Both the position numbers and the translations under genes were made by a program. A stretch of 64,000 bases of DNA from Acetomicrobium thermoterrenum DSM 13490. GTDB lineage: Bacteria > Synergistota > Synergistia > Synergistales > Acetomicrobiaceae. The notes below the pieces were generated by a model. It was not told the origin of the DNA and did not search any database. It saw nothing but the letters and a program-made list of their open reading frames with translations. This document shows, piece by piece, positions 4,355-47,464 of this stretch; position 1 is the stretch's first letter; each line of letters opens with the position of its first letter. The stretch covers positions 47,184 through 111,183 of the forward strand of contig NZ_FNPD01000004.1 of NCBI RefSeq assembly GCF_900107215.1, read 5' to 3'.

Positions 4355-5030
4355 TGAGCATCCACTCCTGGGTATAAATAGGAACTTCCATATCGATATC
4401 GGCATCCCTAACTAACCAGTGAGTAACATTTGTCAAAGTTGCCGGTCTATAAGCATCTACGACTCCAAAAATTTGCACTCCCAACGGAGTTCGCTTTGGT
4501 TCGTCTGTAAATATAATGGGTAAATTTTGAAGCCAGGCAGGTGCGTGATTTTGTGTCACTATGTGATAGGGAAGCAATACTCCCTTTACTTTGCCTACGT
4601 CAACATGCTGTAAAGTAATATGCTCAATGCTTTCGACACATGCAACATCTTGTGTTCGTCCTAAAAGTAGCGTGTAACGTGGACATCGAAAATGCTCTTC
4701 CCACATGGGCGGTAAATAAAGCGTAAGACTAGGCATTGTTAGGAACTCTCGTTGTATTACATTTCTAGAACCAAAGGATATACTACCCTCATTTTCTTTA
4801 CGTTGAACATTGATTATTGCCTCTAAATCTGTAGTTTTAGTTTCATATACAAAGCTATACGCAATCCAATCGACTTCTTTTGGATATACCCAACGACCAA
4901 CAGACGCAGAAAGCAGTCCAAAAATTGTCGATAAGGGAGGAACAGTTAAAGTAAGCTGATGGCTTACAAAAGCAGGCACTCTAAATGAAGCAGTTAAAGC
5001 TGAAATCCTTATACGGATTGAGCTATACAT
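4341..5030 (-). CDS. cas5: CRISPR-associated protein Cas5 (Cas5t type)
   Basis: About 229 residues. Cas5 caps the 5' handle of crRNA in Cascade. The N-terminus reads RIRISALTASFRVP, the RAMP-like first strand with the 'ASFR.P' motif of the Cas5 family, followed by the Ser/Pro-rich PPLSTIFGLLSASVGRW segment that names the family. The ATG at 5030 is chosen because GGAGG lies 8 nt upstream; a longer frame starts at 5096 with no supporting ribosome site. It lies between cas7 and cas3 in the operon; the 3' end overlaps cas3 by 14 bp. Confidence 0.92.
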   Translation of the reverse strand: MYSSIRIRISALTASFRVPAFVSHQLTLTVPPLSTIFGLLSASVGRWVYPKEVDWIAYSFVYETKTTDLEAIINVQRKENEGSISFGSRNVIQREFLTMPSLTLYLPPMWEEHFRCPRYTLLLGRTQDVACVESIEHITLQHVDVGKVKGVLLPYHIVTQNHAPAWLQNLPIIFTDEPKRTPLGVQIFGVVDAYRPATLTNVTHWLVRDADIDMEVPIYTQEWMLNAVQ

Positions 5031-5105
5031 CTGAATATACCTCCATAAATACAAAACAATCATACAGAATTTTTTATATTGAATGATTTTGTGCAAGAGA
5101 GAACT

Positions 5106-6206
5106 TTATTCTTCAAGTAAAGAGAAAATTGCCTCAACCCGATCTGCTGCCTTTTCTAGCGCCTTTTGTGGAGTCCCAACGATTTCTATAGATTTACTGT
5201 CACCAAATTTATTCAAGACCTCGACTTCATTAGCCAAGACTGTAGGTCTATATCCCAGCAACAACGGTTGGGTATTGTTGGTTGATAAAAAACGGGTTTC
5301 GTAATCCTTAATTACCGATTCCAATCTTTCAATGTTAAGAATAACAGACTCGTTATTGTCGTCTGCTGAAAATATTCTTTGAAATGGAGCATTCGCCCCA
5401 TCTAAAGAACCAACTAATACAACCACTGGAGATACATCCGATAAGTTACGAGCAAGACGGGCGCCTCCGCGTAAATAAGCCATTGCCTTAAGAACTTCTT
5501 GAACGCGTTTGATTCTATCCTCTTTCGGCAACCAAAAAACTTTTTGATTATTGGGATCATCTATAAGTTTTTCTTTATGTTTTTCCTTTATATCTTCTGA
5601 GATATCACACATTTCACCAACCATGAAACGTCCAACATCGTTAAGCGAGATAGTGAAAACCCCTTGTAGATAAGTGGAATAATGTTCTGCCTCAAATGGT
5701 ATCATGTCAGTATCCTGCGGAAGATTTCGCGAAAAATGTCCAAAGTCATTGGCTATAACATTAGGCAAACAGGAAATCAATAAGCTATTTTTCAGTGGGG
5801 ATATACGGCGGTATGTACCAACACCTTCCTCAGCGTTATCCGCAGAATTTGCATCTTCATCGCTCTGTTTTTTCTTTTTTTTACCAGTTTTTTCTCCCCT
5901 TTTACGTGCAACCATATAGCCAAATAGGTCATCTTCTTCATAAGTAATTGGATCACCCTTTGTGTAAGCACTTTTTGCTTCCCGTGTAACCTCACTGGGT
6001 GTCCAATTAAAATCCGTATAAAGAACCTCGCGCAACCAGCGTCGCCACGCTTGTCCAGATACATAAGGATAGGAAAGTCTACCAACGCGTATTTGCTTTA
6101 CTGCAATTGCATTATCTACTCTAAGCCCCTCAGCTTGGCCAGCATTATTCAAAGCTGCCCCATTGGCTTCGATCAATATCGATCCTGTTATTACTGGATA
6201 CGTCAT
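5106..6206 (-). CDS. cas7: CRISPR-associated protein Cas7 (Cst2/DevR type)
   Basis: 366 residues. It forms the Cascade backbone on the crRNA. The N-terminus has the Cst2/DevR pattern: GSILIEANGAALNNAGQ, then a conserved RVDNAIAVKQIRVGRLSYPYVSGQAWRRWLRE segment split here over residues 27-60. A Lys/Asp/Glu-rich insert (residues about 100-125, GKKKKKQSDED) is probably a disordered loop. The start overlaps the cas8 stop by 4 bp (ATGA coupling), with GGAG 8 nt upstream inside cas8. The Cst2 family marks the Tneap version of type I-B. Confidence 0.93.
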   Translation of the reverse strand: MTYPVITGSILIEANGAALNNAGQAEGLRVDNAIAVKQIRVGRLSYPYVSGQAWRRWLREVLYTDFNWTPSEVTREAKSAYTKGDPITYEEDDLFGYMVARKRGEKTGKKKKKQSDEDANSADNAEEGVGTYRRISPLKNSLLISCLPNVIANDFGHFSRNLPQDTDMIPFEAEHYSTYLQGVFTISLNDVGRFMVGEMCDISEDIKEKHKEKLIDDPNNQKVFWLPKEDRIKRVQEVLKAMAYLRGGARLARNLSDVSPVVVLVGSLDGANAPFQRIFSADDNNESVILNIERLESVIKDYETRFLSTNNTQPLLLGYRPTVLANEVEVLNKFGDSKSIEIVGTPQKALEKAADRVEAIFSLLEE

Positions 6207-13877: not shown

Positions 13878-14000
13878 AATTTAGTAATGAAGACAGAAGC
13901 CGTTAATTTTATTCCCTGGATGATACATAGCTAAAACCATTTAAATTTGATATAATTTAGATGTACCTAACATATATTTACCATGAGGAGGGGATGAAAT

Positions 14001-14312
14001 ATGCCGGAGAGAATTGAAATAGAAGAAGCGAGAAAGAAGGTAAAGGCAGGGGAAGCACTTTTGGTTTGCGCCTATGCTGATGAAAATAAGTTTAAAAAGG
14101 TGCATCTCGAAGGAGCCATATCCCTTCAGGAACTACAAAGCAAGGAGGATGACTTGCCAAAGGATAAGGAGCTAATCTTCTACTGCGCCTGACCTGATGA
14201 CGGCACAGCTGTCCGTGTGGCAGCTCAGTATGAAAGCAAAGGTTTTTCAAATGCAAAAGCATTGCGCGGCGGAGTGAAAGCTTGGAAAGAGGCAGGTTTT
14301 CCGATCCTTTAA
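14001..14312 (+). CDS. Probable selenocysteine-containing single-domain rhodanese
   Basis: A 104-codon frame with one in-frame TGA (14190-14192) at codon 64, then 39 further codons to TAA. Read through, the product is a complete rhodanese domain: MPERIEIEEARKKVKAGE at the start, the active-site region LIFYCA-U-PDDGTAVRVA, and the C-terminal ALRGGVKAWKEAGFPI typical of the fold. U sits two residues after Cys62, where Cys is common in the CACP subgroup of rhodaneses. A short hairpin just after the UGA (see separate entry) could be the bacterial SECIS. GAGGAGGGG lies upstream of the ATG. The alternative is a one-base pseudogene; conservation on both sides argues against it. The role would be sulfur or selenium transfer. 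Confidence 0.8.
14201..14219 (+). promoter_or_regulatory. Candidate bacterial SECIS hairpin
   Basis: Starting 8 nt after the UGA, the sequence can fold in two ways: CGG/CCG (14201-14203 with 14213-14215), extended by an inner AC/GU, or CACA/UGUG (14204-14207 with 14216-14219) around an 8-nt loop containing GU. Bacterial SECIS elements lie directly after the UGA and have a short stem with a GU-bearing apical loop. The stems here are short, so this is only a candidate. Confidence 0.4.
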
Positions 14313-14342: not shown

Positions 14343-14465
14343 TTGGCGATCGAAGAAAGAAAACAAAATAAAGAGGTTTCCAACGAGGAAAAGGAAAAAC
14401 TCATGAAGGAACTTTTTGAGCAGCTCGACGGATGTGCCGGATGCCCCGGCTGCTGTAACGAATAG
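14343..14465 (+). CDS. Cys-rich mini-protein downstream of the selenorhodanese
   Basis: A 40-residue frame starting at TTG (14343), with GGGAGGG upstream, and ending in TAG. The body is charged and helical (EERKQNKEVSNEEKEKLMKE), and the tail is CAGCPGCCNE, four Cys within seven residues. The tail could bind a metal or an Fe-S cluster, or carry persulfide or selenide. It follows the rhodanese by 30 bp and ends just before a terminator, so the two form one transcript. No family is recognised. Coding is supported by the start site and by composition, not by homology. Confidence 0.6.
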   Translation: MAIEERKQNKEVSNEEKEKLMKELFEQLDGCAGCPGCCNE

Positions 14466-14477
14466 TTCTTAACGAGA

Positions 14478-14510
14478 AAAACAAAGAGGGGAAACTCCCC
14501 TCTTTGTTTT
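14478..14510 (+). terminator. Strong intrinsic terminator
   Basis: Perfect 14-bp arms (14478-14491 and 14497-14510) around a 5-nt loop, with a run of T at the end. The A-run on the other side makes it work for the convergent arsC-like gene as well. Confidence 0.93.
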
Positions 14511-14547: not shown

Positions 14548-14982
14548 TTACGTAATTTCTCTTATCCATTCTTCGATCTTGGCCTTCATCTCTTCTCTTA
14601 TTTCTCTGGTTCTTTGAAGCTTTTCTTTCCTTGTTCCTTCAAAGGAAGCCGGATCGGGAAAGGGCCAGTGAAGTTGTTTTTTTACTCCCGGAAAAACAGG
14701 ACAAAGCTCAGCCTGAGCCGCATCGCAGACGGCAATAACATAATCGTAAGTTTTTCCCGATTCGTATAGATCCACGATTTTCTTCGTCTTCTTAGCTGAA
14801 ATATCGATCCCAATCTCTTGCAGCACCTCGACGACAAAGGGGTTTAAACTATCCCCTGCCTCCAATCCTGCACTTTCCGCTTCAAAACGGTCGCCTGCAA
14901 TGGCGTTAAGCAAAGCTTCGCCCATTTGGCTTCGGGCTGTATTTTTGCTACAGACGAAAAGCACTCTAATCCTATTTCGCAC
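14548..14982 (-). CDS. arsC: Thioredoxin-coupled arsenate reductase / low-molecular-weight phosphatase family
   Basis: 144 residues. The P-loop CX5R is CSKNTARS (Cys11 to Arg17), and two further Cys at 86 and 94 match the resolving pair of thioredoxin-linked ArsC proteins (a triad near 10, 82 and 89). The Asp of the phosphatase general-acid loop is in FPDPASFEGT. The expected reaction is arsenate to arsenite. It has a GTG start with GAGGAG upstream. It sits alone, convergent with the selenorhodanese operon, with no arsR, arsB or acr3 nearby. A tyrosine phosphatase role is less likely given the Cys triad. Confidence 0.85.
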   Translation of the reverse strand: MRNRIRVLFVCSKNTARSQMGEALLNAIAGDRFEAESAGLEAGDSLNPFVVEVLQEIGIDISAKKTKKIVDLYESGKTYDYVIAVCDAAQAELCPVFPGVKKQLHWPFPDPASFEGTRKEKLQRTREIREEMKAKIEEWIREIT

Positions 14983-35311: not shown

Positions 35312-36286
35312 TTACTTTGGCTCTCCCGTCTCTATCGGCAACTCTACGTAGTAACTCCACTCGATCCAAGAGCCATCATAGTTCCTCACGTTTTCGTAAC
35401 CAAGCAATTGAGTCAGAACGAAAGTAGTGTGCGCAGAACGTACTCCCGATTGACAATAAACTATTATATTTTTATCGGGAGTTACACCCCTAGATTCGTA
35501 TATTTCTCTCAGCTCATCCGCTGTTTTGAAGGTATTGTCTTCATTAAGCGCTTCCTTGTACTCTATCCAGATGCTACCGGGAATTCTGCCTTTTCTGTAT
35601 GCACCACTTTTCAATGTTTCTCCCGTGAATTCATTAAAGGCTCTCACGTCAAGTATTATGGAATCCGGGTCGGACATTGCTTCTTTGACATCTTCTAATG
35701 TTGCTAATTTTTGTAAATCCATTTCTCCTTTAAACCTGAACTCTTTCGGAATGATTTCCGGCTTGCTCGTCGTCACTTCGAAACCGGCAGCTTTCCAGCC
35801 ATCTAATCCTCCATCTATCAAAGCAACCTTATTGTGCCCATACATATCTAACTGCCACCAAAATCTTGCGGCGTCATAATCTCCCCTGTCATCGTACAAA
35901 AGTATGAAGGTATTTTCGTCAGCACCCAAACTTCCCAATAATATCTCCATCTTTTCTTTGCTGCATCTCATGCCTTCAAAGGGGTATTCGTCATCATCCG
36001 CGCTGTAATCAGGTCTCCACACATTGACGGCTCCTGGAATATGACCTAAGGAGTAGGCAATGGATCTTCTAATATCTATTATCAACACATCTTCTTCTTT
36101 TTCCATTATCTCCTTTGCCCTTACCGCAGACACGACAATATCAGAGTTAGCGTAATCGGCATATTTTCCCTCTTGCTCTCTTAACTCTATTTCCGACTTT
36201 ACCTCCACGCCACGGCCACGATACCATAGCATTCCGCCAACCAAAGCAATAACAAAGATTAATATAGCAATCCCGAACTTCTTCAT
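35312..36286 (-). CDS. Membrane-anchored tandem-domain rhodanese (SseA-like sulfurtransferase)
   Basis: About 324 residues. An N-terminal hydrophobic helix (KKFGIAILIFVIALVGGMLW) anchors or exports it. Two rhodanese domains follow; only the second has the catalytic loop, VYCQSGVRSAHT with the active Cys, and the first has the usual inactive DDRGDYDAARFWW version. It moves sulfane sulfur from thiosulfate or another donor to a thiol outside the cytoplasm. ATG 36286 has AGGAGG 7 nt upstream. It is close in sequence and design to the second rhodanese at 38005. Confidence 0.92.
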   Translation of the reverse strand: MKKFGIAILIFVIALVGGMLWYRGRGVEVKSEIELREQEGKYADYANSDIVVSAVRAKEIMEKEEDVLIIDIRRSIAYSLGHIPGAVNVWRPDYSADDDEYPFEGMRCSKEKMEILLGSLGADENTFILLYDDRGDYDAARFWWQLDMYGHNKVALIDGGLDGWKAAGFEVTTSKPEIIPKEFRFKGEMDLQKLATLEDVKEAMSDPDSIILDVRAFNEFTGETLKSGAYRKGRIPGSIWIEYKEALNEDNTFKTADELREIYESRGVTPDKNIIVYCQSGVRSAHTTFVLTQLLGYENVRNYDGSWIEWSYYVELPIETGEPK

Positions 36287-36428
36287 AACCAATCCTCCTA
36301 GCCGGTTTTGCGATAAGTGATAAATCTCAATAAAATACGTGTATAAAATAAAAAAATGATTCTATGTTGTCAACTCTTTCAGGATGAGTTGGACAAAAAG
36401 TATAAAAAAATATAACAAGGAGGCAAAG

Positions 36429-37796
36429 ATGGCACGCATAGCGGTTTTCACGAAGTACCCCGAAAGCGGCAAGGTAAAAACACGCCTTGCAAAAGATATC
36501 GGAGAGGACAAGGCAGCACGGCTGCAAAAAGAAATGACAGAATTCGCCCTTTCCAATTTATGGCCTTTAATTTCTCGGGGCCATAAATTGGAGGTCAGAT
36601 TTGACGGAGCTACTTTAGACCAGATGATCTCTTGGCTTGGCGACGGGCTTGAATACGTACAACAAGGTGACGGAGAACTTGGTGTCCGCATGGCACGGGC
36701 TATAGCAGATGGCTTAAAAAAAGACAAAGAACCTGTTATCGTCGTAGGAAGCGATTGTCCTGAGATCAACGCTGAGCTAGTTTTGGAAGCAATCGAAGCT
36801 TGCAAACACAGCGATATCGTTATCGGCCCTGCCTTCGACGGTGGATACTATTTGATCGGTATGAAAAACTTTGAGCCCGATTTATTTGAACATATTACCT
36901 GGGGCAGCAGTACTGTGTTCGAAGAAACCATAAGAAAAGCAAAAAAGCTTGGCCTTTCTGTCTGTAGTCTTACATTGTTAAAAGATGTAGACAGATTTGG
37001 TGATATAGAAATATTTGATAAAGCAAAAAGAAAAATAGGTTGGCAGGGGTTGCCCTTTATCAGTGTTATTATCCCAACGTTGAACGAAGAGAGAAATATA
37101 GCTAAAACCTTAGAAAACGCCCGAGGAGTAAAGGTCGAAAGAATCGTCGCGGACGGAGGCAGCACTGATAGAACTAGGGATGTCGTTAAGAAATGTAATG
37201 TTAAGTTAATATATTCAAAAAAAGGAAGGGCCGTCCAACAAAATGCCGGTGCCCAATATGCTAAAGGCAAAATACTTTTGTTTTTGCATGCTGATTCATC
37301 TCTTCCCGGCGGATTTGACAGCGCCATAAGACAAGCCTATGTCAATAACTTTTCCTTTGGAACCTTTAGCCTAGGTATAGATGCCAGTGGCCTTGGTTTT
37401 CGTGCTACAGAAATGATCGCTAATGCAAGAAGTAAATATTTAGGCTTGCCCTATGGTGATCAAGCTATTTTCGTTGACAAAAAACTTTTCGAAGATGTCG
37501 GCGGATTTCCAATAGTACCCATCATGGAGGATTTCCTGTTGATCAAAAATTTAACTAAGGAATCAGGGAACAAGCCCACGATCCTCCCTCAAAAGGTTAT
37601 GACCTCTCCAAGAAGATGGCAACAATACGGTCTTTGCAAAGTTTTCTTCGTCAACCAGCTCATCATTTTAGGATATTATGCAGGTGTTTCTCTTGAGGTA
37701 CTTGCTGAATTTTATAAAAAACCATCGATGCAAATGGGAAAAGCAATAGTATACGAGCTACTTAAAAAATTTTTACACATCAAAAACAATGCCTGA
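36429..37796 (+). CDS. Fused rSAM/selenodomain-associated transferases 1 and 2
   Basis: About 455 residues. Residues 1 to about 200 are a TIGR04282-type (DUF2064, CofC/MobA-like) nucleotidyl/glycosyl transferase: FTKYPESGKVKTRLAKDIG, VGSDCPEI, PAFDGGYYLIG. Residues from about 208 are a TIGR04283-type GT2 transferase: FISVIIPTLNEERNIAKTL, VADGGSTDRT, LLFLHADS. These two families normally occur as separate genes beside radical SAM proteins of the ArsS/selenodomain type, which is found 5 kb away here. The pair should build or attach a sugar, probably for arsenosugar or a related product. Start ATG 36429 with AAGGAGG 5-8 nt upstream. Confidence 0.9.
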   Translation: MARIAVFTKYPESGKVKTRLAKDIGEDKAARLQKEMTEFALSNLWPLISRGHKLEVRFDGATLDQMISWLGDGLEYVQQGDGELGVRMARAIADGLKKDKEPVIVVGSDCPEINAELVLEAIEACKHSDIVIGPAFDGGYYLIGMKNFEPDLFEHITWGSSTVFEETIRKAKKLGLSVCSLTLLKDVDRFGDIEIFDKAKRKIGWQGLPFISVIIPTLNEERNIAKTLENARGVKVERIVADGGSTDRTRDVVKKCNVKLIYSKKGRAVQQNAGAQYAKGKILLFLHADSSLPGGFDSAIRQAYVNNFSFGTFSLGIDASGLGFRATEMIANARSKYLGLPYGDQAIFVDKKLFEDVGGFPIVPIMEDFLLIKNLTKESGNKPTILPQKVMTSPRRWQQYGLCKVFFVNQLIILGYYAGVSLEVLAEFYKKPSMQMGKAIVYELLKKFLHIKNNA

Positions 37797-37901
37797 CTAT
37801 ATAGAGTAAGATTCCACTATTCATAATAAAAAAAGTTATAAAAGTGCACAATTTAGTCCAATGACCAATAACACAAATTTTTTAAATGACTTCAAATCCC
37901 C

Positions 37902-37919
37902 TTGACACCTATATAGGTA
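37902..37919 (+). promoter_or_regulatory. -35 box with overlapping palindromic operator candidate upstream of the exported rhodanese
   Basis: TTGACA (37902-37907) is directly followed by a perfect 12-bp palindrome, ACCTATATAGGT (37908-37919), sitting in what would be the promoter spacer. A -10 box at the usual spacing is poor (AAAAAA at 37925). The arrangement suggests a repressor or activator site, but the promoter itself is only partly convincing. Confidence 0.4.
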
Positions 37920-38004
37920 AATGTAAAAAATTATTATGAATGTTAAACGTGTGCATATTAGTACAGGTGATAGTGATAACTAATGCAATATATGGAGGTG
38001 TTAG

Positions 38005-38916
38005 ATGGCAATGTGGTTGAAAAAGGTCAAATTGTTTGCTCTGTTATGTTTGTTTATTTTGATTAGGATTGGAGGAACCGCCTTCGCGTCAGATTATGCT
38101 AATCCCGACGCAATAGTTAGTGTCGATGAATTGCATTCGCATATCGAAAAAGGAGAGGTCAAGATTATCGACGTAAGGGGGGGAATGAAATATAAGTTGG
38201 GTCATATACCTGGAGCCGTCAACCTAGATTTCGGCAATTTCATCGACAAAAGTTCTCCCTATCCTTACATGTGTCCATCAAAAGAACAAGTTGAAGAAAC
38301 TTTGAGAGCATTAGGGTTAAAAAATAATGATACGTTGGTAATATACGGAGACACTCCAAACAATGCAGCTGCCCGGGTATGGTGGATATTGGATCGCTAT
38401 GGGCACAAAAACATTAAACTTTTAAACGGTGATATTGCCGCTTGGGAATCCGCCAACTTTAACAAGGAAATGCTATCCCCCAAGATTGAAGCCACGACTT
38501 ACATTATAAATGGCGTGGATAATTCAAAGTATGCATCAGCTGAAGATGTAAAAGCTTCCTTAGATGACCCTAACGTCGTAATTTTGGACGTGAGATCATA
38601 TGAAGAATACACTGGAGAAAAACTTCTCAAGGGTGCCAAAAAAGCGGGACGTATTCCCGGAGCCGTTTGGGTTGAATGGACTCAGGCTCTGGATGAAAAG
38701 GGGCACTTTAAATCATTTAACGCACTTAAGGAACTTTATGAATCTAAGGGTGTTACTCCCGATAAAACAATTATCGTATATTGCCAGGGAGGCTATCGTG
38801 CGGCACATACAACATTTGTGCTACATCGCCTCTTAGGATACCCCAACGTCAAGAATTACGATGGATCATGGGTAGAGTGGACAGCTTTGGACTTACCTGT
38901 GGAAACGGGAAAGTAA
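38005..38916 (+). CDS. Exported tandem-domain rhodanese (SseA-like sulfurtransferase)
   Basis: 303 residues. A signal peptide (about 1-29, ending AFA-S) precedes two rhodanese domains. The second has the catalytic loop VYCQGGYRAAHT with the active Cys; the first has no Cys at that place (YGDTPNNAAARVWW). The paralogue at 35312 is similar throughout. It is expected to transfer sulfane sulfur in the periplasm. GGAGG is 6-7 nt before the ATG. It lies between the fused transferase gene and the DedA-like gene, before the large palindrome. Confidence 0.92.
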   Translation: MAMWLKKVKLFALLCLFILIRIGGTAFASDYANPDAIVSVDELHSHIEKGEVKIIDVRGGMKYKLGHIPGAVNLDFGNFIDKSSPYPYMCPSKEQVEETLRALGLKNNDTLVIYGDTPNNAAARVWWILDRYGHKNIKLLNGDIAAWESANFNKEMLSPKIEATTYIINGVDNSKYASAEDVKASLDDPNVVILDVRSYEEYTGEKLLKGAKKAGRIPGAVWVEWTQALDEKGHFKSFNALKELYESKGVTPDKTIIVYCQGGYRAAHTTFVLHRLLGYPNVKNYDGSWVEWTALDLPVETGK

Positions 38917-38941
38917 TTCTCGATTTGAAAATAATCGAAAG

Positions 38942-38997
38942 ACTTATCTTTTGCTCATACAACTTTAACGTTAAAGTTGTATGAGCAAAAGATAAGT
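38942..38997 (+). repeat. Perfect 56-bp palindrome
   Basis: Every base from 38942 to 38997 pairs with its mirror: arms of 28 bp, centre AACGTT, no loop. In RNA it would form a long hairpin with only the central bases unpaired. It lies 25 bp after the rhodanese stop and 16 bp before the DedA start. It may terminate or stabilise the rhodanese mRNA; no T-run follows. It could also extrude as a cruciform in DNA. Confidence 0.97.
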
Positions 38998-39013
38998 GAA
39001 GGGAGTGTTCAAT

Positions 39014-39736
39014 ATGACTGTAAATAACCTAAAAAATCAAAAAACGAAAAATTCCTCCGGCAACATTAAAAGAGTCTTGACTGCAGTAGTCATTATTGGG
39101 GCTATCATATTGATACTGCATAGACTAGGCGTTTTTTCCTACTTGACTCTTGAAAATATTTCAAGGATAAGAGAATGGATTTTAAGTTTTGGAATTTGGG
39201 GACCCGTTATTTATATAATCCTATGGATAGCGGCCTGTGTCTTCTTTTTGCCGGGATTGCCTGTTGCATTAGTGGGAGGGATTGCCTTCGGCCCCCTTTG
39301 GGCAACTGTTTATTCCTCTATCGGTTCTACGTTGGGAGCAACTGCAGCTTTCCTTATAGCCCGATATGTGGCGAGAAACATGGTGGAAGAATGGGTAAAC
39401 AAATCTCCACAGCTCAAGAAAATCGACGAAGGCGTAAAAAAACACGGATGGCGTATGCTTATGATCACGAGATTGGTTCCTATTTTTCCTTTTAACGTAC
39501 AAAATTACGTATATGGATTGACAAAAATATCGCTGACAACTTACATGTTGGTATCATGGATTTGCATGTTGCCCGGCACCATAGCCTATAGCTTTGCTGG
39601 AGGGTCTCTGTCTCAGGGAGGAGATATGAAGCAGACATTTATTTATTTGAGCATAGCCGCAGTCTTCTTCGTAATTATATCTTTAATTCCCGGCTGGATT
39701 CGAAAGAAAAAAGGTGACGTTATAGATAACGTCTAA
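39014..39736 (+). CDS. TVP38/TMEM64 (SNARE-associated, DedA-related) membrane protein
   Basis: About 240 residues with five or six membrane segments. The family core is FLPGLPVALVGGIAFGPLWATVYSSIGSTLGA (residues about 80-110), then AFLIARYVAR and the RLVPIFPFNVQNYVYGLT motif. This family is a lipid scramblase or solute transporter by distant relation to DedA. It is often found beside selenodomain radical SAM clusters. ATG 39014 (GGGAG upstream). It is followed 37 bp later by the GltD-like gene. Confidence 0.93.
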   Translation: MTVNNLKNQKTKNSSGNIKRVLTAVVIIGAIILILHRLGVFSYLTLENISRIREWILSFGIWGPVIYIILWIAACVFFLPGLPVALVGGIAFGPLWATVYSSIGSTLGATAAFLIARYVARNMVEEWVNKSPQLKKIDEGVKKHGWRMLMITRLVPIFPFNVQNYVYGLTKISLTTYMLVSWICMLPGTIAYSFAGGSLSQGGDMKQTFIYLSIAAVFFVIISLIPGWIRKKKGDVIDNV

Positions 39737-39773
39737 ACCATTCAAATTTTGTTCATGGAGGTGTGTTTGCTAA

Positions 39774-42386
39774 ATGACTGAAAAGATAAAAGTAAAACAA
39801 TATCCGCCTGATGTTATAGAGAAAATGAAAGAGATAGTAGAAGAATGTATGGGAGACGCACCCCCTTTTTGTCAAGCGGCATGTCCTATGCATACGGATG
39901 CAAAGGGTTATATACAAATGATTTCGGAAGGAAAATATAAGGATGCGATCAAGTTAATCCGAGAAAAACTCTTCTTGCCGGGAACGCTGGGTCGCATCTG
40001 CGCTCACCCCTGTGAGGAAAGATGTAAACGAGGGGACTTGAAATACCCTATGTCTATAGCCGAGCTGAAAAGGTTCGCATCTCAATTTGATAACCCGAGC
40101 GATTGGGACCTGCACTGTGAACAAGATAAAGGCAAATCTGTAGCTATTATAGGAGGAGGACCAGCAGGGGCTCAGGCGGCCATAGATTTGAAAAAAAAGG
40201 GTTATTCCGTAACTATATTTGAAAAGCTACCTAAAGCGGGAGGGATGCTGCAGGTAGGTATACCTGAGTATAGATTGCCAAGGGAAATTGTCGACTTTGA
40301 ATACAGCTATCTTTATAAACTGGGTATAGAGATTCGAACGGGAACTGAAGTAGGTAAGGATATATCTTTTAACGATATAAAGGACAATTATGATGCCATA
40401 TTGATAGCTACTGGCGCTACAAAAAGCCTAATCCTTCCCATTCCTGGTAATGATTTGAATGGAGTATTGGGCGCACTAGAACTGCTAAAGGACGTTAGTG
40501 AGAAAAAACCTGTCGAAGTAGGCAATAAAGCAGTGGTAATTGGCGGAGGAAATGTCGCCATGGACGCTGCTAGAACGCTTCTACGAGTAGGAGCCAAAGA
40601 AGTACAACTCTTTTGCCTTGAACAAAGGCATGAGATGCCGGCCCATACTTGGGAAGTGGAAGAAGCGGAAGATGAAGGTGTTATAGTCAACAACGGTTAC
40701 GGACCCAAGGAGATACTGGGGAAAAATGGAAAAGTTAAGGCCATCAGATTTAAAAAGTGCCTTTCCGTCTTTGATGCAGAAGGTAAATTCAATCCCAGTT
40801 ACGACGAAAATGACATAATTGAAATAGACGCAGATAGTATTATATTCGCAGTGGGTCAACGACCTGACACATCTTTTATCCCAACAGAGATTGGACTGGA
40901 GCTTGAAAAAAACGGAAGGATAAAAGTCCTTCCGGAAACATTAGAGACCAACATCCCGGGAATTTTCGCAGCCGGTGATGTTGTTATAAAGCCATGGTTT
41001 GTCATCGAAGCTTTAGCCCTCGGGCGAAAGGCAGCAATATCAATAGACAGATACCTGGAAGGAAAAGATTTGTTTGCAGACAGAGACCTCACCTGGGAAG
41101 GTCCTTTTGATACATGGTTGGAAAAGGATATTGAAGGGGAGGAAATCTTGCCGAGAGTGCAAACACGCATGAGGCCTTCACAGGAGCGAATCAATGATTT
41201 TAAAGAAGTAAATCTAGGCTTTACCGAAGAAATGGCTCGCAGAGAGGCAGAGCGCTGTTTGCAATGCGAATGCAGGCTATGCATGCAAGAATGCTTAATG
41301 CTTAATGATTTCGCTCACTGTCCAAGGGAGCTTTTCGAAGAAATCCTTAAAAGCAATGAGGTTAATCCCCTAGTTCCCTACTCTTGCAACATGTGCGACC
41401 AATGTACGCTTCAATGTCCAAAGGAGTTTAAGCTGGGAGACAGATTTAGCGACATAAGAAAGGAATTAGTTCAAGAAGGGTTAGCTCCATTGAAGGAACA
41501 TAAGCCCATATTGGCACATCAACGACTTGGCTTTTCTAAACTTTTTAACGTTACCGTTCCCGACACAAATACAGGTAAGACTGTCAGGGTCTTTTTTCCG
41601 GGATGTAGCTTGCCTTCATATAACCCCGAGGCCGTAGGTGCTATTTATGCATATTTAAAAGAGAAGTTGCCCGGAACCGGAGCTATACTGAAATGCTGCG
41701 GAAAACCTACAAAGGCATTGGGAATGATGGAAGATTTCCATCATAAATTTGACAGCGTCATAGAGGAAATAGAAAAACTGGGCGCTACAGAAGTTATAGT
41801 GGCCTGCCAGTCCTGCTATAATACCTTCAGGCAGTACTTGCCTGAGCATATAAGTGTCAAATCTTTATGGCAACTGCTACCGGAAATTGGTCTTCCCGAT
41901 GATGCCGTAGGTATTGGCAAAGATACGGGTATAACAGTTGCTATTCACGATTCCTGTGTTACCAGAGATGTTCCATCTATACATGATGGCATCAGGTGGA
42001 TAGTAAAGCAGCTGGGCTATGAAATCGAAGAACTGCCACACAGTAGAGAAAACACGCGTTGTTGCGGATATGGAGGTATGATAGTTCCTGTTAACCCCGA
42101 TCTAGCGAAACGTGTGATGTCGAGACGTGCACAGGAAGCAAATTCCGATTGCATAGTAACTTATTGTGCCGCTTGCAGGGCATCTATGATGGCTGGAGGA
42201 AAACAAGGTTTCCATATATTGGACTTAATTTTCGGCGGAAGCCTTGCCGGGCGGGAAGCTCCAGCCCCTGATGGTTCACTAGCCAGCTGGTACAAGCGCT
42301 GGAAGACGAAGCGATTACTGAAAAAAGTAGCCGAAACCCAGTCCAGAAAATCATCGTTAAGCAGCAACAACGCGCGGGCGGCATAA
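39774..42386 (+). CDS. GltD-like flavin oxidoreductase fused to a CCG (heterodisulfide-reductase-like) domain
   Basis: 870 residues. The N-terminal third is Fe-S/flavin GltD-like: Cys clusters FCQAACPMHTD and CAHPCEERCKRG, FAD site GGGPAG (127-132), NAD(P) site GGGNVA (about 256) and GIFAAGDVV. A ferredoxin-like Cys cluster follows (CLQCECRLCMQEC, CNMCDQCTLQCP). The C-terminal third has two CCG-type motifs, PGCS...CCGKP and DSCV...RCCGYGG, as in HdrB, LutA and GlpC. It would pass electrons from NAD(P)H through FAD and Fe-S to a disulfide-like or other thiol/chalcogen acceptor. The acceptor is not known. GGAGG lies upstream of the ATG. Confidence 0.9.
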   Translation: MTEKIKVKQYPPDVIEKMKEIVEECMGDAPPFCQAACPMHTDAKGYIQMISEGKYKDAIKLIREKLFLPGTLGRICAHPCEERCKRGDLKYPMSIAELKRFASQFDNPSDWDLHCEQDKGKSVAIIGGGPAGAQAAIDLKKKGYSVTIFEKLPKAGGMLQVGIPEYRLPREIVDFEYSYLYKLGIEIRTGTEVGKDISFNDIKDNYDAILIATGATKSLILPIPGNDLNGVLGALELLKDVSEKKPVEVGNKAVVIGGGNVAMDAARTLLRVGAKEVQLFCLEQRHEMPAHTWEVEEAEDEGVIVNNGYGPKEILGKNGKVKAIRFKKCLSVFDAEGKFNPSYDENDIIEIDADSIIFAVGQRPDTSFIPTEIGLELEKNGRIKVLPETLETNIPGIFAAGDVVIKPWFVIEALALGRKAAISIDRYLEGKDLFADRDLTWEGPFDTWLEKDIEGEEILPRVQTRMRPSQERINDFKEVNLGFTEEMARREAERCLQCECRLCMQECLMLNDFAHCPRELFEEILKSNEVNPLVPYSCNMCDQCTLQCPKEFKLGDRFSDIRKELVQEGLAPLKEHKPILAHQRLGFSKLFNVTVPDTNTGKTVRVFFPGCSLPSYNPEAVGAIYAYLKEKLPGTGAILKCCGKPTKALGMMEDFHHKFDSVIEEIEKLGATEVIVACQSCYNTFRQYLPEHISVKSLWQLLPEIGLPDDAVGIGKDTGITVAIHDSCVTRDVPSIHDGIRWIVKQLGYEIEELPHSRENTRCCGYGGMIVPVNPDLAKRVMSRRAQEANSDCIVTYCAACRASMMAGGKQGFHILDLIFGGSLAGREAPAPDGSLASWYKRWKTKRLLKKVAETQSRKSSLSSNNARAA

Positions 42387-42410
42387 GTTTAAACAAGGCA
42401 ATTTGCCGTG

Positions 42411-42451
42411 AAAATAAAACTGGGAGGGATCAATCCTCCCAGTTTTATTTT
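42411..42451 (+). terminator. Bidirectional terminator between the GltD-CCG and arsS genes
   Basis: Perfect 17-bp arms (42411-42427 and 42435-42451) with a 7-nt loop and A/T runs on the two sides, between convergent genes. Confidence 0.95.
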
Positions 42452-42466
42452 TCGTTGTAAACTTTA

Positions 42467-43438
42467 CTATTTAACTGTTTCGCCTTGACAGGAGGAGCCG
42501 GCTCCTGCCGTACAACCGAAACAATGTTCGCCCACAACTATCTTTCTATTGGAAAGTTTGTCATAATCAAAATCGAATATATGGGAAGGGCCATCCTTAA
42601 TCTTTAAACCCAACATTTGGTTAAAATCACAATCATAAAGATATCCCTCCCAATCAACAGAGATGGTCGTTCTGCACATTACATTTTCTACAGCAACGGG
42701 ATTAAAGGCGGAGATCAATTCCTCCATATAGCCACCATAATTTTCGCTTCTTTGTAGAAATTCCATGAATCTTCCAATAGGCATGTTTACAATCACAAAA
42801 AGGTTATTGAAGTGTACACCGTATTTCTGCAGCAAATGTTTTTTGTACTCTGTTTCCAGCGCTTTTTGGCTTGCGGGCAAGTAGGCCCCTGCAGGATTGT
42901 GAACCAAATGAACTTGCAAATTTGACCCAGACATTCCGTAACCAAGCTTGTTGAGTTCCTTCAATGCTTCTATAGACCGAATGAACGTATTTTCGCCACG
43001 TTGTCTATCCGTTCTCGAGGGATTATAATCGGGAAGCGAACCCACTAGTTCGATGCCCAATTTACTGTAAATTTCTAAATATCGACGCCATGGTTCATTG
43101 AGTAATATCACCAGATTTGTTCGCACGATAATCCGTCTAGAGGGCCTTGCGAGCATTTTCAAAAACCAAGCAAGATCGGGATGCATCTCAGGAGATCCTC
43201 CTGTTATGTCAACTACAGAAATATTATTGGCATCAATAACATTGAGGCAGGCTTCCAGAATCTCTCTAGACATTATCTCCTCTCTTTTGGGCGAGGCATT
43301 GACATGGCAATGCTTGCAACATAAATTGCATCGTCTAGTGATATTAAGCTGTAATATTTGCACTCCTGTAGCTCGCAAGGGCATCATATTCAAGCTGCAA
43401 AGCTTATTTTCAAAACTTTCCGCAACTTTTGTCTCCAT
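42467..43438 (-). CDS. arsS: ArsS-type radical SAM/Cys-rich protein (arsenosugar biosynthesis; TIGR04167 type)
   Basis: 323 residues. The radical SAM motif is CNLCCKHC (CxxxCxxC) in NITRRCNLCCKHCHVNASP; the family C-terminal Cys-rich tail is HCFGCTAGAGSSCQGE. ArsS joins the 5'-deoxyadenosyl group of SAM to dimethylarsinous acid, a key step of arsenosugar synthesis; the family was first noted beside selenium-linked genes and some members are reported with selenocysteine. Here every position is Cys. No arsM lies in the window. It heads a two-gene minus-strand unit after the AhpD-like gene. Confidence 0.9.
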   Translation of the reverse strand: METKVAESFENKLCSLNMMPLRATGVQILQLNITRRCNLCCKHCHVNASPKREEIMSREILEACLNVIDANNISVVDITGGSPEMHPDLAWFLKMLARPSRRIIVRTNLVILLNEPWRRYLEIYSKLGIELVGSLPDYNPSRTDRQRGENTFIRSIEALKELNKLGYGMSGSNLQVHLVHNPAGAYLPASQKALETEYKKHLLQKYGVHFNNLFVIVNMPIGRFMEFLQRSENYGGYMEELISAFNPVAVENVMCRTTISVDWEGYLYDCDFNQMLGLKIKDGPSHIFDFDYDKLSNRKIVVGEHCFGCTAGAGSSCQGETVK

Positions 43439-46651: not shown

Positions 46652-47464
46652 TTAATCGGAATTTTCAAGCCAGTCTACCTTGAAAATATGCCCCACACAG
46701 CCATACCCCTTTCCACCTTTGAACCTATGTTGAATAGCCAACCTGGTATAATCTTTGGCCCTTTTCACCGCTTCTAAAGTATCGGTACCTGCAGCCAATT
46801 CCGCCGCAATCGCTGCCGACAATGTACAACCTGTTCCATGATGATCGTTCGTATGTATCCTTTCATGCTCGAAGACATGAAACTTTCCCTCATAGTAAAA
46901 AAGGTCGGTAACCCTTTCACCCTCCAGATGTCCTCCCTTTACAAACACACCTTTAGGGCCTAATTCGGCAATGACTTTAGCTGCCTCCTTCATTTCGTCA
47001 AGAGAGGTAATTTTCATCCCTGTCAGTTTTTCCGCTTCAGGAATGTTTGGGGTTACTATAAAGGCAAGGGGAAGAAGTTCACCGATCATGGCGTTAACGG
47101 CCCCTCCAAACATTAAAGGATCTCCGCTTTGAGCAACCATGACAGGATCCACCACCAATTTGGTCACTCTATGAGTTTTTATGCCCTCAGCTACCTCTGA
47201 AATGGTTTCCTCGCGCGAAAGCATGCCTGTTTTTACGGCACCTACAGAAAAATCAGTCAATATTGCCTTTATTTGGGCGCCAACCATCTCGCAAGGTATA
47301 TCGAAGACCTTGTGCACTCCCAAACTGTTTTGAGCTGTTACTGCCGCCAAAGCAGCAGTACCAAAAACCTTCAAATGCAAAAAAGTTGCAAGATCAGCTT
47401 CTATACCGGCTCCTCCACCGGAATCGCTGCCGGCTATCGTCATCGCAATACCCCTATATGTCAT
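46652..47464 (-). CDS. thiD: Hydroxymethylpyrimidine (phosphate) kinase
   Basis: About 270 residues. Motifs AMTIAGSDSGGGAGIEADL, KTGMLS, VDPVMVAQSGDPL, TPNIPEAE and the catalytic NDHHGTGCTLSAAIAAELA are complete. It phosphorylates HMP twice. ATG at 47464 with AAGG upstream; a GTG nine bases earlier is the alternative. It is the first thi gene and follows ychF by 15 bp. Confidence 0.95.
   Translation of the reverse strand: MTYRGIAMTIAGSDSGGGAGIEADLATFLHLKVFGTAALAAVTAQNSLGVHKVFDIPCEMVGAQIKAILTDFSVGAVKTGMLSREETISEVAEGIKTHRVTKLVVDPVMVAQSGDPLMFGGAVNAMIGELLPLAFIVTPNIPEAEKLTGMKITSLDEMKEAAKVIAELGPKGVFVKGGHLEGERVTDLFYYEGKFHVFEHERIHTNDHHGTGCTLSAAIAAELAAGTDTLEAVKRAKDYTRLAIQHRFKGGKGYGCVGHIFKVDWLENSD

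Follow-up and report, generated by a model that had tools for sequence, protein, structure and literature searches.

An apparently broken rhodanese gene lies within a 64,000-nucleotide stretch of DNA (hereafter the window) from Acetomicrobium thermoterrenum DSM 13490, positions 47,184 to 111,183 of contig NZ_FNPD01000004.1 in a source genome of 1.97 Mb and 21 contigs (Table 1). Direct reading of the frame, from its ATG (14001-14003), meets a TGA at codon 64 and then passes through 39 sense codons to a TAA (14310-14312), exactly as a preliminary description of this DNA had claimed, coordinates included. Ordinary reading would truncate the product at 63 aa, whereas reading the TGA as selenocysteine (Sec, U) restores a full enzyme of 103 aa, with the sequence MPERIEIEEARKKVKAGEALLVCAYADENKFKKVHLEGAISLQELQSKEDDLPKDKELIFYCAUPDDGTAVRVAAQYESKGFSNAKALRGGVKAWKEAGFPIL. 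In this joined frame the Pfam rhodanese model PF00581 spans the TGA, matching residues 8-98 at 40.1 bits against a cut-off of 22.2, so that the earlier assignment to the rhodaneses also holds; a whole-genome rhodanese search reported the same locus independently, with one internal TGA.

The gene is followed, 30 bases past its stop, by a small open reading frame (ORF) of 40 aa with a cysteine-rich C-terminal end, DGCAGCPGCCNE (motif DGCAGCPGCC), whose protein matched no family above cut-off. Homologues of this ORF, encoding Cys-rich proteins of 40-55 aa, occur in 7 of 188 genomes of the phylum, in all seven directly downstream of a Sec-rhodanese, making the mini-protein a candidate dedicated partner of the enzyme on the strength of its position. 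The copy in genome G001 is without one Cys (CEGRPGCC), and no partner is present in G187, G121 or G122. An ATGA overlap of the rhodanese stop with a possible small-ORF start in G177 and G176 was considered as evidence of coupling and rejected, as there is, further downstream, a more suitable start that has a ribosome site of its own. Ahead of the rhodanese, a block with a TATAAT hexamer is kept in G000 (the source genome), G005, G003, G001, G177 and G176, members of families f1 and f9, while its flanking bases vary; a generic sigma-70 scan passed it over, and it is the probable promoter/operator of the two-gene unit. Of these genomes, G005 was grouped with the source genome as one species in the genome search.

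Table 1. Features of the rhodanese unit in the window, with related selenoprotein genes elsewhere
Feature	Position	Strand	Basis or remark
Upstream block TAGCTAAAACnATTTnAATTTGATATAATTTA with TATAAT -10-like hexamer (13951-13956)	13928-13959	+	Conserved in two families
Strong Shine-Dalgarno, GGAGGGG	13987-13993	+	Direct reading; purine-rich site in relatives too
Rhodanese selenoprotein gene (predicted)	14001-14312	+	103 aa; C62-A-U64-P loop; V-C23-A-Y motif for DxR
In-frame UGA, read as selenocysteine 64	14190-14192	+	Conservation in 10 genomes of 4 families; Sec machinery
bSECIS stem-loop, 7 bp (14207-14213 with 14219-14225), loop CGUGU (14214-14218)	14207-14225	+	Covariation; RNAalifold; published model
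Small Cys-rich ORF, 40 aa, TTG start, ...FEQLDGCAGCPGCCNE	14343-14465	+	Candidate thiol/metal partner; homologues in 7 genomes
Intrinsic terminator-like hairpin closing the two-gene unit	14485-14505	+	Stem also in sub-threshold Rfam alignments
selD, itself a selenoprotein gene (SGUAAKLGP)	L045, G000 C1:200496-201428	-	Source genome G000
Double-Sec rhodanese genes, Y-U-A-U from TGA-GCN-TGA	L086:4106-4393; L087:4025-4312	+	Two genera of family f7

Wider gene neighbours are not conserved in more distant relatives. In two f9 genomes (L084:1880-4830 and L085:2340-5290, both on the minus strand) a single-chain molybdenum hydroxylase closely precedes the rhodanese unit; it is nearest to Se-dependent xanthine dehydrogenase, the NCBIfam model Se_dep_XDH fitting it best, though with a score far under the cut-off. 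The window itself holds an arsenosugar-type cluster at 35312-43438, with fused TIGR04282/TIGR04283 glycosyltransferases, an ArsS radical SAM protein (TIGR04167), two tandem-domain rhodaneses of weak similarity to ExtH and an NF045663 'diclust_near_Sec' oxidoreductase. The preliminary description had suggested a possible link of the rhodanese to the selenium/arsenic-linked genes at 36-44 kb, a suggestion that found no support: the cluster is more than 20 kb away, and the gene neighbours of the rhodanese are unshared in more distant relatives. We rejected a functional tie to either this cluster or the adjoining ArsC-like gene, the association not being conserved.

Evidence for selenocysteine at codon 64

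Across 188 Synergistota genomes, TGA is kept at the position of codon 64 in ten genomes belonging to four families, always within the context Y-C/U-A/G-U: eight have C-A/G-U and two, both of family f7, have U-A-U encoded by TGA-GCN-TGA. A separate scan of a genome collection had a single protein as query, and distant relatives outside Synergistota could have escaped it. Acetomicrobium hydrogeniformans ATCC BAA-1850 and the metagenome-assembled genome UBA5826 share an identical TGA and frame, and the codon persists as protein identity to the window rhodanese drops to ~50%, being carried too by relatives at 51-62% identity. Substitutions 3' of the TGA fall mostly at third codon positions (for example 4/8/20 and 9/10/29 by codon position). 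Such retention in ten genomes, combined with coding-type divergence beyond the TGA, rules out random mutation or sequencing error. Compared with A. hydrogeniformans, 13 sites differ before the TGA and one after, a more uneven distribution than expected from protein constraint, which may stem from recombination. An in-frame TGA in G010 was discarded as a homologous Sec site, since its context (GYUNVF) is not in the active site and it seems to be unconnected.

The bacterial SECIS (bSECIS) model calls for a loop of 3-9 nt with G in one of its first two positions, a stem of 4-16 bp, a distance of 16-37 nt from the UGA and a minimum free energy (MFE) of at most -7.5 kcal/mol (PMC13188914), and the window has a stem-loop within all of these limits: AGCUGUC pairs with GGCAGCU around CGUGU, with G second in the loop, 21 nt after the UGA and at -8.3 kcal/mol. 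A perfect-stem version of the model is passed by ~1.2% of UGA triplets on the window's plus strand. When 11 distinct sequences were compared in a gap-free alignment after the UGA, RNAalifold returned one stem (columns 19-24/30-35) with compensatory change in three of its six pairs, and a five-pair core was paired in 100% of the sequences. The covariation score of this core, 0.476 versus 0.183 in shuffles, was reached by none of 500 shuffles, and sliding the pairing along the alignment gave 0.18 at most. It was this comparative analysis, and not plain single-sequence MFE folding, that singled out the stem; folded singly, the 56 nt that follow the UGA show no unusual overall stability (z +0.58), and a longer segment of the window sequence adopts a different pairing at minimum energy. 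The fit is looser in some relatives: the perfect stem of G001 has 5 bp at -6.0, with the scan finding a -7.7 element, and the stem-loop of G122b, at -7.2, is slightly short of the -7.5 limit. An Rfam scan gave sub-threshold matches only, mostly to the terminator hairpin, and is uninformative for bSECIS.

In the f7 double-Sec genes the codon of the catalytic Cys is UGA as well, and this first UGA would lie 27 nt from the same SECIS loop, within the range of the model. One SECIS is apparently shared by both UGA codons, and the UGA-GCN-UGA genes pose the question of whether a single element is enough for a pair of Sec codons with a spacing of six bases. The motif UxU is absent from the text of a 2026 review (PMC13188914).

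The means to decode such codons are encoded in the source genome, where selA (575 bits), selB (374 bits, adjoining selA just behind it), a tRNA-Sec with TCA anticodon (75 bits) and selD (332 bits) supply the SelA, SelB, tRNA-Sec and SelD expected of a bacterial selenoprotein producer; the active-site residue of selD is itself a TGA codon. The AlphaFold2 model of the read-through protein is a confident and complete rhodanese (pLDDT 92.1, pTM 0.85), and its best Foldseek matches are rhodanese-fold structures, with PDB rhodaneses at TM about 0.7-0.8. A helix (68-79), a strand (84-88) and a second helix (91-97) follow the Sec in the model, and would thus be missing from a 63-aa product. Because the frame, the conservation of the UGA, the covarying SECIS, the Sec machinery and the complete predicted fold all point the same way, we consider it very probable that the gene is intact and its internal stop read as Sec. 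The preliminary description had proposed a selenoprotein and named the sel genes and codon 64 of related strains as its checks; with the machinery present and the TGA retained by relatives, its core claim is strongly supported.

Two other accounts of the TGA carry little weight beside this. If the TGA were a nonsense mutation or sequencing error, the gene would be a pseudogene yielding a useless 63-aa fragment, and TGA is after all a normal stop in relatives, f9 homologues for instance apparently terminating with it. The same TGA in ten genomes of four families, the coding-type divergence downstream and the covarying SECIS argue so heavily against decay, as does a fragment that would lack the greater part of the active-site loop along with the final third of the fold, that we give this account almost no credence. 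Marginally less remote, though still very improbable, is readthrough by suppression or a code change with an amino acid other than Sec, for which it can be said that sequence alone cannot show the inserted residue. Against it stand the complete Sec machinery, the SECIS-like element, the second Sec codon in selD, the closeness of codon 64 to the catalytic Cys and the use of UGA as a stop elsewhere in the carrier genomes.

The active site and what it may do

Alignment places the invariant rhodanese catalytic Cys, after the central strand, at C62, with the Sec at +2 (C-A-U); the C62 column is aligned in every row of alignment A2, including the f7 UAU rows, where the residue is Sec, printed as C. 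Canonical rhodaneses have S, G or A at +2, and non-Sec relatives of the window rhodanese have CDS/CDT, CAS or CRS. The preliminary description had set U64 in CAUP at the place where CACP-type rhodaneses have Cys; by alignment the nucleophile is C62 and U64 its +2 neighbour, and the homologue searches brought up no 'CACP' relative with Cys in place of Sec. In this clade, V-C-A-Y also stands in for the (V/I)-D-x-R of other rhodaneses, the Asp being replaced by C23 and the Arg by Tyr. Relatives offer a natural active-site series, C-A-U, U-A-U and C-D-S/T, that lets the role of Sec beside a persulfide-forming Cys be tested.

The gene very probably encodes a short cytoplasmic single-domain rhodanese, its UGA 64 decoded as Sec by SelA/SelB/SelC/SelD under the direction of the stem-loop inside the coding sequence just downstream. 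C62 would act as the nucleophile, taking up sulfane sulfur as a persulfide, which Sec64 could then attack to form a C62-Sec64 selenenylsulfide unless the sulfur is passed on. A thiol partner would reset the enzyme or receive its sulfur, the likeliest being the small CxxCPxCC-type protein of the next gene (seven genomes), or else thioredoxin, and the role would be that of a redox or persulfide carrier rather than of a classical thiosulfate:cyanide sulfurtransferase. This chemistry of persulfide attack or relay with a Cys-rich partner is plausible but tentative. More doubtful is its extension to Synergistota, in which a CAU or, in one family, double-Sec UAU rhodanese would hand sulfane sulfur or electrons to the CxxCPxCC mini-protein of the next gene in most carriers. 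Were that relay true, each of its parts would be a novelty: a rhodanese that can have Sec as the nucleophile and also beside it, and a small Cys-rich protein tailored as partner to a selenoprotein. The partner gene supplies a first candidate substrate for the Sec-rhodanese.

Other functions can be imagined for such a selenoprotein. Rhodanese folds can carry perselenide, and a rhodanese domain is part of MnmH-type selenouridine synthases, so the Sec might bind selenide or carry selenium, the protein feeding SelD or a selenium cofactor; the f9 units, which lie a few tens of bases beyond a gene for a molybdenum hydroxylase with Se_dep_XDH as its best model (well below cut-off), would suit delivery of this kind. 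However, that neighbour was not seen in f1; YqeC, the marker of the selenium-cofactor (YqeB/YqeC) trait, was not found in the source genome; and none of that genome's six rhodanese matches could be recognised as MnmH-type. A selenium supplier that depends on Sec would moreover be circular, though SelD itself is so, and we judge selenium delivery improbable. Fainter again is the prospect of an oxyanion (arsenate or selenite) reductase resembling Cdc25/Acr2-type rhodaneses and tied to arsenic metabolism: the loop from C62 to GF is, by eye, ~2 residues longer than in CASGGRS-type relatives, and an ArsC-like gene adjoins on the opposite strand (14548-14982, minus), but there is no HCX5R motif, and the homologues in G001, f9, f10 and f7 have no ArsC gene next to them. 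We keep to the tentative persulfide chemistry as the preferred proposal.

Relation to known rhodaneses and selenoproteins

The preliminary description stated that rhodanese-family selenoproteins had appeared in metagenomic surveys but that few were described in isolates, a detail that needs changing, for the CxU family is already on record. It is listed as a predicted selenoprotein, rhodanese form 3, with TKB26178.1 as example and NF041203 as model (PMC13188914), and elsewhere as COG0607 form 2 (PMC9312934); no sulfurtransferase or other biochemical function of NF041203 was found in the literature searched. The window protein shares the C-A-U motif of NF041203 (rhodanese_LYCAU) but scores 64.5 bits against its cut-off of 115 and so falls outside the family by its curators' test; f7 paralogues with CAU and hydrophobic N-termini do exceed the cut-off. 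A tree separates the window clade from the NF041203 clade with support of 99/98, and the Cys-only f7 paralogues (CDS/CDT) fall inside the window's clade. Judged by sequence, the window rhodanese is a diverged, small and previously unrecognised branch of the known CxU selenoprotein type, to which its clade adds a distinct line. Genome G121 has two tandem NF041203 rhodanese selenoproteins (L090:4182-4547 and 4831-5196, plus strand), both CAU and with hydrophobic N-termini.

The likeness to NF041203 extends to the rhodanese fold, the Sec at +2 (C-A-U-P) and the long active-site loop and, for the f7 members, to the position and shape of the SECIS. The window protein is, however, 27-28% identical to those members, is without a signal-peptide-like N-terminus, has CxY for DxR and is accompanied by a Cys-rich partner gene. 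TsoB (NF045694), a rhodanese/DsbD fusion selenoprotein with a UxxxxU motif (PMC13188914), resembles the UAU variant in being a rhodanese selenoprotein with two Sec, but its model is a 572-position fusion with another motif, on which the window protein scores 15.9 against a cut-off of 805. Among structures, BH2092, a single-domain rhodanese of Bacillus halodurans (PDB 3nhv, 3o3w; phmmer about 1e-6, Foldseek TMq about 0.8), agrees in overall fold and has an active-site loop of comparable length (YCWGPACNGATKAA), yet no Sec, a second loop Cys at +4 rather than the Sec at +2, and an intact DxR (VVDVRD). The canonical single-domain GlpE (PDB 1gmx) matches in fold (TMq 0.80, rmsd 1.9) and in the position of the catalytic Cys; it has a short active-site loop, no Sec and the DxR motif.
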